Assembly: GCA_944391115.1 (NCBI GenBank) | Contig: CALXSJ010000001.1 | Location: 129,169-193,168 of the forward strand | Direction: 5' to 3' | Length of the DNA: 64,000 nucleotides | From: an uncultured Victivallales bacterium | GTDB taxonomy: Bacteria; Verrucomicrobiota; Lentisphaeria; Victivallales; UBA1829 | Part shown: one piece after another, positions 2,836 to 28,116 of the stretch | How the letters are laid out: every line of letters begins with the position of its first letter | How positions within the stretch are numbered: the first letter of the stretch is position 1 | Notes under the pieces: generated by a model | Database searches by the model: none | Seen by the model: only the letters and a program-made list of their open reading frames with translations | Told to the model about the DNA's origin: nothing | Position numbers and translations under genes: made by a program

Positions 2836-5043
2836 ATGGAACTACTGGCACCGGCGGGAAATCTGGAATGCGCGCTTGCCGCGTTTGACGCGGGGGCGGA
2901 CGCCGTCTACTGCGGCTTGAAACGCTTCAACGCGCGCGAACGGACCGAAAATTTCTCTTTTGACGAGATGTCGCGTCTGATCGCGTATGCGCACAGACTC
3001 TCCCGGCGCGTCTATGTCACGTTCAACACGCTCGTCAAGGAGGATGAGCTTGACGAGGCGGCGCAGGAGCTCGCGCGTCTGGAGGAACTGCGGCCGGATG
3101 CCGTCATCGTGCAGGATCTCGGAGTCGTGCGGATTGCGCGCGAATATTTTCCGAAGCTCGTGCTGCACGGTTCGACCCAGATGGGGCTGCATAATTCCGC
3201 AGGACTCGCCTTTGCAAAGGATCTCGGACTTTCCCGCGTGATTCTGGAGCGTCAGACCACACTTGCCGAACTGGGAAAGATCATGCGCACAAAGCCGCCC
3301 GTCGAACTGGAAATATTCATTCACGGTGCGCTCTGCTGCTGTATTTCCGGCACCTGCCTGCTCTCCTCCTGGCTCGGCGGCTGGAGCGGAAACCGCGGCA
3401 AATGCAAGCAGCCGTGCAGGAGGCGTCACCGCTCCGCCGGAGGCAACGGATTCTTCCTTTCGGCGCAGGATCTCGCCACGCCGGAACTGATGCCCAGTCT
3501 GATGCGGACGGGGGTTGCATCCTTTAAAATCGAAGGGCGTCTCCGCCGCGCCGACTATGTCTCGAACGTCGTGACCGCCTACCGGATGCTGATGGACGCA
3601 TGTCTCGAGTCCGAAGAGGCGTTCCGCGCGAAGCTCCCCGAAGCGAAAACTTTTCTCGCCCGGACTTACGGACGGAAATGGTCGAACGGCTACTATACGA
3701 AAGAGTCCGCCGCGGCTCTCATCAAGCATGACGCGCTGGGAGGATCCGGACTCCTCTGCGCGAAAGTGGTCTCCACGTCTCCGAACGGTTTTACGATGAG
3801 CGCAAACCGCAATGTGTTTCTCGGCGACATGATCCGTGTTCAGCCGCCGAGCGGGGACGAGGGGCCGGCCTTCCGCGTCACGAAAATGACGTTTCACGGG
3901 AAAAACGTTTCCTGTGCGGGGAAAGGCGAAGAGGTTTTCGTTCATGCGGACAAGGAGATTCCGCGCGGCGGACTCGTCTACAAAATCGGCGAGCGCACGC
4001 CGGATTATTCCGCGCGCATTGCACAGCTTCCGCTCCGGCTGCCGCTTCTGGACATGGATGTGAAACTCTCGCGGACGCTCTGCCGTGTGGAAATCCTGGG
4101 ACGGGTTTATGAACAGGCGCTTGCTCTCTCCGAGGCGGAAAAACAGCCGCTTGACCCGGCGCATGTCGCGGAAGAGTTTTCCAAGCTGCGCGACGGGCGT
4201 TTTGAAGCGGGACGTGTGCATGTTTCGGTGTCCGGGAATCCGTTTCTTCCATCCAGTGTTCTCCGGCAGCTGCGGAAGGACTGTGCCGCCGCGCTTCTGC
4301 CGCTTCTTGATCCTGCGCGAAATGCGGAGAAAACGAAAAAGGCTCTGGCGCGCTTCCGGGCCGATCATGCCGCGCTGGCGCATCCGGAGCTCCGGGAGAA
4401 GGTGCCCGATACGGTCCTCCTTCCGCGGGGGAAACACCCGGGAATTGCCGCACGATGCGTCATCGCGCGGGAAATTGCGGATGACCCCGCGCCGCATGAG
4501 GAACTGCTTCTTCCGTTTTACATTCCGGAAAGCATGCTGGAGGAAGTGAAAACGGCGGTCCGCCGTTATGTCGGGAAGGGGGGGCGGACGATCCGGATCA
4601 CCTCGCCGGGACACTTCGCCCTGCTCGGGGAGTATCCGGAACTGACGCTCAAGACCTGCATGCCGCTTCCGGTCTGCAACTCGATGGCAATTGCGGAGCT
4701 GGCGCAGCGCGGCGTGTCGCTTGTCCAGGGGTGTCTGGAACTCGGGAAAACCGAGCTTGCCGCGCTCGCGCGGAAGTCGGTCCTGCCGTTTGAACTTTAC
4801 CGTTACGGCCGTCCGGTTCTGCTTTCGACGCGGGCCGCGCTGCCTGTGCACGGCAGAATGCTTGATGCGAAGGGGGATGCGTTTCTGGTGGAGAAACACG
4901 GCATTCTGACGCAGGTGCTGCCGGAAAAGGTTCTGAGCCTGCCCCGACTGGAGGAGGCGGACGCCTGTTTCCATGACCTGCGCGCGGCGGAAGAACATGA
5001 GCGTGATACGGCGCGCTTCAATTTCGACATTGCGCTTGCATGA
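2836..5043 (+). CDS. U32-family peptidase-like protein (RlhA type)
   Basis: 735 aa. The N-terminus (MELLAPAGN) and the stretch at residues 159-177 with a Cys triplet at 167-169 match the U32 signature. Further Cys residues at 174, 190 and 194 are in positions known in this family to hold an iron-sulfur cluster. The long C-terminal part after about residue 380 resembles the DUF3656 extension found in RlhA, which hydroxylates 23S rRNA C2501 in E. coli; RlhA is about 650 aa, so this one is somewhat long. An RNA-modifying role is therefore more likely than proteolysis. AAAGG lies 9 bases before ATG 2836, and the promoter at 2768 excludes upstream starts. It converges with the RlmI-like gene. Confidence 0.88.
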   Translation: MELLAPAGNLECALAAFDAGADAVYCGLKRFNARERTENFSFDEMSRLIAYAHRLSRRVYVTFNTLVKEDELDEAAQELARLEELRPDAVIVQDLGVVRIAREYFPKLVLHGSTQMGLHNSAGLAFAKDLGLSRVILERQTTLAELGKIMRTKPPVELEIFIHGALCCCISGTCLLSSWLGGWSGNRGKCKQPCRRRHRSAGGNGFFLSAQDLATPELMPSLMRTGVASFKIEGRLRRADYVSNVVTAYRMLMDACLESEEAFRAKLPEAKTFLARTYGRKWSNGYYTKESAAALIKHDALGGSGLLCAKVVSTSPNGFTMSANRNVFLGDMIRVQPPSGDEGPAFRVTKMTFHGKNVSCAGKGEEVFVHADKEIPRGGLVYKIGERTPDYSARIAQLPLRLPLLDMDVKLSRTLCRVEILGRVYEQALALSEAEKQPLDPAHVAEEFSKLRDGRFEAGRVHVSVSGNPFLPSSVLRQLRKDCAAALLPLLDPARNAEKTKKALARFRADHAALAHPELREKVPDTVLLPRGKHPGIAARCVIAREIADDPAPHEELLLPFYIPESMLEEVKTAVRRYVGKGGRTIRITSPGHFALLGEYPELTLKTCMPLPVCNSMAIAELAQRGVSLVQGCLELGKTELAALARKSVLPFELYRYGRPVLLSTRAALPVHGRMLDAKGDAFLVEKHGILTQVLPEKVLSLPRLEEADACFHDLRAAEEHERDTARFNFDIALA

Positions 5044-26425: not shown

Positions 26426-26923
26426 ATGGCAGGGAAAAAACAGAAACTGGTCCGTCCGGACTGGGATACCTATTTCATGCAGATTGCGCAGGTGGTCGCG
26501 CTGCGGAGCAACTGTTCGCGGCGGCAGGTCGCGGCAGTGATCGTCAAGGACTTCCGGATTATTTCCACGGGTTACAACGGGACGCCCCGCGGGATTAAAA
26601 ACTGCTGTGACGGAGGATGTCCGCGCTGTTCGTCGGATGCGCCGTCCGGAACCGCTCTGGAGGAGTGTCTCTGCTGTCACGGCGAGGAGAACGCGATTGT
26701 TCAGGCGGCCTATCACGGCATCTCGGTGAAGGATGCAACTCTTTACACGACGTTCAGCCCCTGTCTGCTCTGCGCGAAGATGATTATCAACGCGGGGATC
26801 CGCGAGGTGGTTTACAAGGAACGCTATTCCATTGACGAGACCTCCAAGCGCATTCTCCGCGAGGCCGGCGTGAAACTGCGCCCGCTTGTGGAGGAGAGTT
26901 CTTCCCCGCGTTCGGAAAAATAA
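26426..26923 (+). CDS. Deoxycytidylate deaminase, ComEB-like
   Basis: 165 aa from ATG 26426, preceded by AAGGAGG. Zinc ligands are H85 in HGEENA (catalytic Glu at 87) and the Cys pair at 113/116 in SPCLLCAKMI. The N-terminal half has the tyrosine-asparagine-glycine (GYNGTPRG) substrate loop and an extra Cys-rich segment at 60-68 that binds a second zinc in relatives. It deaminates dCMP to dUMP, feeding dTMP synthesis. The multi-hairpin repeats begin right after its stop. Confidence 0.9.
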   Translation: MAGKKQKLVRPDWDTYFMQIAQVVALRSNCSRRQVAAVIVKDFRIISTGYNGTPRGIKNCCDGGCPRCSSDAPSGTALEECLCCHGEENAIVQAAYHGISVKDATLYTTFSPCLLCAKMIINAGIREVVYKERYSIDETSKRILREAGVKLRPLVEESSSPRSEK

Positions 26924-26930
26924 ACTGCCC

Positions 26931-27064
26931 TGATGCAGAGCATGCGCTCATCGGGGATTCCGCCTTCGGCGGCCAGCTTGCGCAGCTGGACCGCGGCAGG
27001 ACTGAGAGTCCTGCACGAAGCATAATGCGATGCAGGGCATCGCATTATTCACTTGATTTTTTTT
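26931..27064 (+). repeat. Multi-hairpin repeat, copy A (points right)
   Basis: Four hairpins in a row. H1 CCGCC-TTC-GGCGG (26960-26972). H2 CCAGC/GCTGG with a 7-base loop (26973-26989). Linker GACCGCG. H3 GCAGGACT-GAG-AGTCCTGC (26996-27014). H4 has 12-bp arms ATAATGCGATGC/GCATCGCATTAT with loop AGG (27022-27048), then eight T at 27057-27064. A weaker hairpin precedes H1. Positions 26973-27062 are identical to copy B. Confidence 0.85.
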
Positions 27065-27072
27065 AATGGGTT

Positions 27073-27208
27073 ACCGCGATGCAGGCATACGCGGTATCGG
27101 GGATTTCGCCTGCGGCGACCAGCTTGCGCAGCTGGACCGCGGCAGGACTGAGAGTCCTGCACGAAGCATAATGCGATGCAGGGCATCGCATTATTCACTT
27201 GATTTTTT
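27073..27208 (+). repeat. Multi-hairpin repeat, copy B (points right)
   Basis: A tandem copy 146 bases after A. H1 is TCGCC-TGC-GGCGA (27106-27118): the outer pair changed from C-G to T-A with pairing kept. H2 27119-27135, H3 27142-27160, H4 27168-27194, T-run 27203-27208. The 5-prime hairpin is ACCGCG/CGCGGT (27073-27095), different from copy A. It ends 25 bases before the membrane gene at 27233. Confidence 0.85.
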
Positions 27209-27232
27209 AATTTTCAACAGGGAGGTCTGGAA

Positions 27233-27889
27233 ATGAGTTTTGAAAAATGGTCCGAAAAGTATGCGCCCGCGGTAGCTCTGGTCATGTCGATTCTCGCATT
27301 CATCTGCGCGGTTGCCGCGTTCATGAACATGCCGGAGAAAATGCCGTCGATGCCGAAAGGTGCCTCCATGCAGCAGCGCGGCCCGCGCGGCGGCGGTGGT
27401 GGCATGGGCATGCGTCCCGGTCGAGGCGTTTCCAGGGAATACATCAAACTGTATCAGGACCGCGTCCAGCTTCTGACGCAGATCGTGGAAAGCAATGAAC
27501 TGCAGTTCCAAACCGGGGCGCTGCCTCTGGAGGATGTCGTGCATTCCCGTTTTACGGCGGATTGCGGCAGAGTGATGCTTGCGCGCCTTGAGATGGGCGG
27601 CCGTCCTTCGCCCGGGCTGACGGAAGCGGTCATGGCGGAGAAATACTGGGCCTGGGATGTGAAAATGCGGAATAACGGATACAAGGCGGGAAATGTGCCG
27701 GCGGAGAAATACTGGAATTCCGCCCTGGAGTGGAATCAGGCGCGTTTGAATCTTTCGCGGATGGAGTTCCGGATTGTCAACAATCCCGAGTTCCAGAAGG
27801 CTGTGGAGGAGTGTCTGAAGAATTATCCGGACGGCAGACTGTCGGACGAGCAGATCAAGCGCCTTGTGGAGACGGAACGCGCGTTTTGA
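27233..27889 (+). CDS. Small membrane-anchored hypothetical protein enclosed by repeats
   Basis: 218 aa. One membrane segment at about 12-31, then a Met/Pro/Gly/Arg-rich linker (roughly 32-66) and a helical domain with several Trp and Tyr. CAGGGAGG precedes the ATG, confirming translation. No catalytic motif is visible and I do not recognise the family; the linker-plus-helix layout recalls periplasmic helical proteins of the CpxP/heavy-metal-resistance type, with low confidence. It is flanked on each side by two copies of the multi-hairpin repeat, all with the H4 end facing the gene. Confidence 0.7.
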   Translation: MSFEKWSEKYAPAVALVMSILAFICAVAAFMNMPEKMPSMPKGASMQQRGPRGGGGGMGMRPGRGVSREYIKLYQDRVQLLTQIVESNELQFQTGALPLEDVVHSRFTADCGRVMLARLEMGGRPSPGLTEAVMAEKYWAWDVKMRNNGYKAGNVPAEKYWNSALEWNQARLNLSRMEFRIVNNPEFQKAVEECLKNYPDGRLSDEQIKRLVETERAF

Positions 27890-27900
27890 ACCCGCGAAAA

Positions 27901-28007
27901 CGGAAAAATGCGGAAGCATTTTTCCCGGGGTCAAGGGGCTTTGACCCTTGTCGCGGTCCGGCGGCGGTCCGCTGGTCGCCGCAGGCGAAATCTCCGCCCG
28001 GAGTGTC
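27901..28007 (-). repeat. Multi-hairpin repeat, copy D (points left)
   Basis: Same family, inverted. On the plus strand from left: H4 GGAAAAATGC/GCATTTTTCC (27902-27925), H3 GGGTCAA/TTGACCC (27928-27947), the linker CGCGGTCC, H2 CCGGCGG/CCGCTGG with one G-U pair (27958-27975) and H1 TCGCC-GCA-GGCGA (27976-27988). Read on the minus strand it shares GATTTCGCCTGCGGCGACC with copy B. H4 begins 12 bases after the membrane gene ends. Confidence 0.8.
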
Positions 28008-28017
28008 TGTTTATAAA

Positions 28018-28116
28018 CGGAAAAATGCGGAGCATTTTTCTCGGGGTCAAGGGCCGTTGGCCCTTGTCGCGGTCCAGCGGCGAGACGCTGGTCGCGCGGA
28101 GCGCGAAATGCTTCCG
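28018..28116 (-). repeat. Multi-hairpin repeat, copy C (points left)
   Basis: Tandem to D with many arm changes that keep pairing: H4 AAAAATGC-GGA-GCATTTTT (28021-28039), H3 CAAGGGCC-GTT-GGCCCTTG (28048-28066), the same linker, H2 CCAGCG/CGCTGG (28074-28091), H1 TCGCGC-GGA-GCGCGA (28092-28106). It ends 22 bases before the stop of the MscS gene. Confidence 0.8.

Follow-up and report, generated by a model that had tools for sequence, protein, structure and literature searches.

The hairpin repeat that occurs four times (copies A to D) in the window, the whole 64,000-nt stretch of Victivallales DNA analysed, raises the question of whether its stems belong to a structured RNA, to a folded single-stranded DNA or to a mobile element. 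All four copies of the original prediction are present at the proposed positions with the named stems, including the arms of H1 (CCGCC/GGCGG in A, TCGCC/GGCGA in B and D, TCGCGC/GCGCGA in C) and of H3 (GCAGGACT/AGTCCTGC in A and B, CAAGGGCC/GGCCCTTG in C). The shared architecture proposed for them (H1-H2-linker-H3-H4) comprises stems that do exist, but leaves out the fifth hairpin of A and B, H0, which lies at their left end and is the key to the identity of these two copies. A and B are 97% identical over 113 shared nt; chiefly H0 sets them apart, so that neither is a simple duplicate of the other. C and D, inverted relative to A and B, are 88% identical over 65 shared nt, with a mismatch in H2 of D. 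Type 1 (A and B) consists of H0, an H1-H2-ACCGCG-H3 core, H4 and a T-run, about 152 nt in all, and type 2 (C and D) of the core with other H3 and H4 arms between sharp ends (ATTTCG...CCGT), about 90 nt, with no H0. The features of the locus, with LE and RE denoting the two ends of a type-1 element, are:

26919..27064, plus strand: copy A, type 1, an old copy whose start lies at the TAA stop codon (26921-26923) of the deaminase gene upstream; layout: decayed RE hairpin, H1, H2, ACCGCG, H3, LE hairpin, T-run
26960..26972, plus strand: H1 of A, CCGCC/GGCGG
26973..26995, plus strand: H2 of A and linker ACCGCG
26996..27014, plus strand: H3 of A, GCAGGACT/AGTCCTGC
27022..27050, plus strand: LE hairpin (H4) of A; guide position 27049, T on the top strand and A on the bottom strand
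27065..27208, plus strand: copy B, type 1, in tandem with A; core and LE as in A, RE hairpin different (AATGGGTTACCGCGATGCAGGCATACGCGGTATC)
27065..27098, plus strand: RE of B (H0), with CR complement AATG, hairpin TACCGCG..CGCGGTA and guide base C at 27098
27106..27118, plus strand: H1 of B, TCGCC/GGCGA
27119..27141, plus strand: H2 of B and linker ACCGCG
27142..27160, plus strand: H3 of B, GCAGGACT/AGTCCTGC
27168..27196, plus strand: LE hairpin (H4) of B; guide position 27195
27900..27991, minus strand: copy D, type-2 unit, in tandem with C
28017..28109, minus strand: copy C, type-2 unit, ATTTCG-H1-H2-GGACCGCG-H3'-H4'-CCGT; no RE or LE recognised

The A/B locus is also occupied in two sister species, with a fused type-1 pair in G001 and a single type-1 copy in G003 (L229) versus A and B in the genome of the window (G000), and one type-2 unit stands in G001 (L172) versus C and D. 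No intergenic repeats were recognised at the window locus in the more distant G002. The flanks of A and B no longer show the TTNAT motif that adjoins young copies, and the RE of A is decayed; by these signs A and B are old, and their membership in the family is read from homology to its young copies. A sub-threshold Twister-sister hit (window 26852-26961, 22.2 bits, E=0.066) runs from the 3' end of the deaminase gene into the beginning of copy A, and was judged a chance match to what is mostly coding sequence.

The repeat belongs to a large family. Copy B matches 57 places in its own 3.66-Mb genome and C/D match 90, and an exact core pattern (GACCAGC-N7/8-GCTGGACCGCG) has 54 matches in G000, 40 in G001, 120 in G003, 36 in G012 and none in G002; the reversed control pattern gave 0 matches in the own genome and 0 in the other genomes listed (137 were searched in the order), and copy number is far above chance. 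Further intergenic copies with covarying stems, as expected from the original prediction, are thus numerous in the own genome and in related ones. Scanning all species genomes with an exact pattern recovered true members in the Victivallales and Lentisphaeria, Victivallis vadensis included, and a few in bins labelled Firmicutes; most other matches were chance occurrences inside GC-rich genes, and the nine matches in viral contigs all appeared to be chance coding matches. The core with 8-bp H1 stems lies on the contigs of L129, L148, L181 and L186, two of which are labelled Ruminococcus (RGIG4760), reflecting either horizontal spread or mis-binning. Modules of the family also build mosaic arrays: at L279 (G000:C15:53000-57900), two near-identical, inverted arrays of palindromic modules of about 430 nt each (1200-1660 and 3450-3870) flank a single gene, and modules such as GAGCGGTTTGAACCGCTC and CTCGAAGCTTCGCTTCTCG are found again genome-wide.

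Stem arms were counted directly, because the MAFFT core alignment misregisters H1 and H3 arms of unequal stem length, and a covariance model built on that alignment would be wrong. Among 169 distinct cores, 147 form an H1 of 4 bp or more and 133 an H3 of 6 bp or more, with 17 different arm pairs for each stem (shuffling the flanks gives 10 for H1 and 0.6 for H3); copies in V. vadensis and in a Ruminococcus-labelled bin have stems of very different sequence. The proposal that arms vary while pairing is kept is therefore right for H1 and H3 in general, but a recurrent H3 variant (GCAGGACTGARAGGAGAGC; also given as GCAGGACTGARAGGAGAGCACG), whose 3' arm is unpaired, occurs in more than 20 copies (e.g. 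L024, L029, L035, L194, L309 and L327) and is common to several species and subfamilies, so the constraint does not act on every stem. Perfect DNA palindromes can, moreover, be maintained by template-switch correction, so that covariation by itself does not demonstrate selection on RNA, nor do covarying arms alone prove selection on structure. Folding the bottom strand of the element as single-stranded DNA gave a structure far better than those of shuffled sequences (z = -6.1).

Type-1 copies have spread recently. Nine of them, at unrelated sites in the own genome, are 100% identical over 154 nt, and other species of the genus carry near-uniform type-1 sets of their own (97–98%, 93% and 83%). 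The sequences flanking G000 copies were used to search G001 and G003, and comparison of the junctions revealed empty orthologous sites, with the target present once, for L008 (GTGAAATAAACG), L012 (TTCGAATGAAGC), L017 (AAGAAATGAACC) and L018 (GATGAAC), and the target of a G003 copy, L318 (AAATCATAAG), is likewise intact and empty in G000 and G001. A filled site reads, for example, TTCGAA|TAAATTACC...TTTTTTTGAA|ATGAAGC. At L016, L019, L325 and L327 the flanks have diverged, and these four loci contribute no empty-site evidence. Other type-1 copies, including L004, L006, L023 and L273, are common to G000 and G001, which indicates several waves of spread.

No target duplication was detected at the empty and filled sites compared between the sister species. 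In subfamily 1a, one of the guide classes defined below, one end of the copy carries TTCAT and the opposite end TTTAT (ATGAA on the right and ATAAA on the left), and since these differ they do not match as a target duplication; a two-base duplication (AT or TA) was also considered and cannot fit subfamilies 1a and 1b together, while a reading with no duplication fits all copies. Type-1 ends form no terminal inverted repeat and instead have near-terminal palindromes at both ends. These observations bear on whether the copies are classical MITEs, with terminal inverted repeats and mobilised by a DDE transposase. Type-1 elements resemble MITEs in being short, gene-less and multi-copy and in having inverted sub-terminal ACCGCGATGC repeats, but their ends (AATAAATTACC and TTCAAAAAAATTT) are not inverted repeats and their empty sites lack a duplicated target, so that we give this explanation almost no weight.

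In nearly all young copies the bottom strand shows the target TTNAT directly 5' of the element, and a single base of the element, N', located 5 nt 5' of the first hairpin (GGTTN'ATACC-GCGATGC..GCATCGC), varies with the middle base of that target: N' is G at TTCAT in subfamily 1a, A at TTTAT in subfamily 1b and C at TTGAT in G003. This guide base is complementary to target base N in 43 of 58 non-tandem copies, where the best of 100,000 permutations reached 36; the position was chosen post hoc, after the data had been seen, and is the same in every copy, and within homogeneous subfamilies the guide is inherited, so that independent guide changes are few (about three) and only the targets are independent. 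Once 5 mis-parsed right-end rows had been removed from the guide table, the overall count was 48 of 62 copies (permutation p<1e-5), with 5 of the 14 exceptions being G-T wobbles and the pairing neither Watson-Crick nor wobble in 9. An initial reading of the guide as a triplet was dropped in favour of the single position, whereupon several apparent exceptions matched. Empty sites show that the target base pre-existed insertion, within TGA at L012, L017 and L018, TAA at L008 and TCA at L318 of G003. A second guide, in the RE, is complementary in 12 of 17 distinct RE sequences, a looser fit than that of the LE. The strongest covariation found links the guide of the element to the site of insertion, a relation not visible to the original prediction.

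The stop codon of a coding ORF is the exact landing point of 13 of 30 type-1 copies in G000, of 3 of 16 in G001 and of 2 of 16 in G003, compared with a background in which 43 of 541 AATNAA sites in the same loci are such stop codons. Stop-codon sites are likely frequent because the targets read A-TAA-A or A-TGA-A on the gene strand and the element's own cleavage site restores an in-frame TAA or TGA; selection against insertions within genes would add to the excess. At L318 the last codon TCA becomes TGA, and L016 sits at an intergenic AATGAA, which indicates that the motif is recognised and not the stop codon as such. The same data weigh on the possibility that the repeat is a new structured RNA, either a cis-regulatory 3' UTR element or a small RNA, conserved for its fold. 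The covariation of H1 and H3 (17 arm pairs for each stem), the intergenic location of the copies, mostly downstream of a same-strand gene, and the terminator-like T-runs after some H4 stems would all suit such an RNA, but a target motif that is a stop codon already accounts for the downstream position, copy number and position vary between sister species, clean empty sites and 100% identical dispersed copies occur, H3 is broken in more than 20 copies, inverted arrays place copies on both strands of one locus and no Rfam match exceeded threshold. We therefore consider a structured RNA improbable. Where the original prediction left the choice between RNA and folded single-stranded DNA, the transposon ends, targets and guide favour single-stranded DNA for copies of the A/B type.

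The search for a Y1 transposase led first to contig C293 of G024 (L355), which holds a TnpA remnant and, after it, an RE that shares GCATGCTTGCATCGCGGTA with the repeat and ends in GTTCAT, and then to related intact genes. In G020 (L362) an intact 146-aa TnpA lies between an LE (TTTAT|TCTTTTGGGTTTAATACC-CCGACCCTCTGGGTCGG, hairpin CCGACCC..GGGTCGG) and an RE (CCGATACCCCG..CGGGGTAGTTCAT) with the layout and guide rule of the repeat, and in G058 (L361) and G028 an RE follows the TnpA gene. Intact IS200/IS605 TnpA elements with matching ends thus occur within the same order, and the RE of copy B has the same layout as the RE of these autonomous elements, which contain no hairpin core. The TnpA belongs to the IS200/IS605 group (NF033573, 4.5e-35; 120.6 bits); its nearest solved structures are 2fyx (2.6e-20) and 2xm3/2xma/2xo6 (about 3e-19 to 1e-18), the latter of which we take to be ISDra2 TnpA, with IS608 at 3e-13, and its HVH motif and C-terminal Tyr align with those of the solved relatives.

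Despite their recent copies, the draft genomes of G000, G001 and G003 (94–95% complete) yielded no TnpA with matching ends, and the only copy in the genus is a decayed one beside a tRNA gene in G002 (L390). PF01797 searches returned only IS200 remnants in G000 and G001, an IS200 and the decayed TnpA in G002 and nothing in G003. The own genome was also examined for RAYT or Y1 genes with the repeat on their flanks, and the candidates proved to be only ordinary IS200 remnants with another hairpin (CCACCGGCT/AGCCGGTGG). At L102 and L171 an IS200 end (CCACCGGCTTAGCCGGTGG in L102) adjoins the hairpin core, as if an IS200 had inserted into a copy. REP/REPIN elements mobilised by a RAYT (REP-associated tyrosine transposase) are likewise palindromic, intergenic, abundant and arranged in mosaic arrays, and RAYTs are also Y1 HUH enzymes (PMC3116915, PMC8266576). 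Type 1 differs from them in its complete LE and RE and its clearly defined insertion target, no RAYT was found in the genus by the PF01797 search and the partner TnpA scores well below the RAYT model cut-off (26.7 versus 80 bits, against 120.6 bits for IS200/IS605). A RAYT-based origin is already disfavoured for type 1, and we regard it as very unlikely.

The explanation that we hold with considerable confidence is that A and B belong, as old members, to a family of non-autonomous IS200/IS605 elements of about 150 nt, or PATEs (palindrome-associated transposable elements, as defined in PMC3119063), with DNA-guided targeting, and that C and D share only their core. On the bottom strand such an element would read TTNAT, then the LE guide (N' in TTN'ATACC) 5' of a hairpin, the core in the order H3-H2-H1, and finally an RE that has a guide and hairpin of its own and stops at the element's own cleavage site, TTTAT or TTCAT. 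Excision of the bottom strand, in the form of a single-stranded circle, would fall to an ISDra2/IS608-type Y1 HUH transposase acting in trans, which would then integrate the circle 3' of a TTNAT with a middle base able to pair with N'. A change of N' would redirect insertion, to TTCAT (1a) or TTTAT (1b) in the own species and to TTGAT in the sister species G003. As the coding strand of TTTAT and TTCAT is ATAAA and ATGAA, stop codons would be frequent and harmless sites, the end of the element supplying a new in-frame stop. Both the single-strand mechanism and the supply of TnpA in trans are inferred, and the hairpin core would be cargo within the PATEs.

This places A and B in a known class. 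It is correct that no Rfam family covers the repeat, but the ends, targets and guide of the A/B type match IS200/IS605 single-strand transposition, so the earlier impression that no published family fits holds only in part. Like the PATEs of Haloquadratum walsbyi and others (PMC3119063, PMC7290912), type-1 elements have near-terminal palindromes with no terminal inverted repeats or target duplication, are too short for a transposase, form homogeneous dispersed copies, have ends related to the IS605 type and coexist with few or no intact tnpA genes. A tnpA source in the same genome is usual and not part of the PATE definition, and Haloquadratum itself shows recent PATE insertions with almost no intact tnpA (PMC3119063). 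Unlike those PATEs, the present elements occur in a bacterial order, the Victivallales, have a conserved three-hairpin core with covarying arms, comprise three guide/target specificities in one family and frequently insert at stop codons. Other families of the order contain elements with the same RE hairpin (AATAAATTACCTCGATGCAAGCATACGAGGTAT) and a different interior (L071 in G036, L072 and L083 in G053; that of L071 ends in CGACCCAAAGGGTCGGGG), which are probably further PATEs.

The partner TnpA is closest to ISDra2-type TnpA, and TTGAT, the pentanucleotide that ISDra2 targets (PMC5934647), is among the three TTNAT classes of the present family; the repeat differs from ISDra2 in having neither tnpB nor transposase and in using other TTNAT targets according to its guide. 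In IS608, as here, the guide lies 5' of the base of the hairpin; it pairs with the target as well as with cleavage sites CL and CR and determines target choice, insertion is 3' of a short target and a changed guide changes the target (PMC5934647). IS608, however, uses TTAC and the guides AAAG/GAAT, and its guide–target pairing was both elucidated and re-programmed in the laboratory, whereas in the Victivallales near-identical elements of sister species differ in one guide base and their sites differ in step, a retargeting between natural subfamilies. Natural re-targeting becomes directly testable in this system, which offers ready-made guide/target pairs for ISDra2-type enzymes and an example of a mobile element made harmless by landing on stop codons, and the family also explains many assembly-breaking repeats in these genomes.

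C and D are tandem units of a dispersed hairpin module of about 90 nt that is related to type 1 by the core only. No RE or LE with target and guide was recognised in 47 type-2 copies, and type 2 was not classed as PATEs; since no such ends were recognised in C and D, the PATE reading does not extend to their spread. This leaves room for a view of the core (H1-H2-GGACCGCG-H3) as the primary mobile or functional unit, with IS605-type ends as one vehicle, which is compatible with the PATE reading of A and B. The core occurs with no such ends in type 2, to which C, D and many copies in genus g10, family f2 and elsewhere belong, is lacking in the autonomous elements, is joined to different end sequences in L082 (family f2) and L073 (genus g13), and in type 2 has sharp boundaries; against this, neither a mobiliser nor an empty site was found for the type-2 unit, and type-2 copies look old, several being common to G000 and G001. 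On balance we see this view as a serious possibility that falls short of an even chance. That the core, retained across genera although its arms change entirely and still pair, is an independent structured single-stranded DNA or RNA module, of hitherto undescribed spread, riding on guide-directed IS605-type mini-transposons with at least three natural specificities in one genus, strikes us as slightly less probable still.

The bottom-strand 5' flank of type-2 units (e.g. L080, L233, L234 and L045) is often TTAC, directly before GGAAAAATGC; TTAC being the IS608 target, this flank may hint at how type 2 spreads. At L231, L232 and L239, a full type-2 unit has short tandem repeats of its first half (ATTTCGTGCTTCGCA) immediately upstream.
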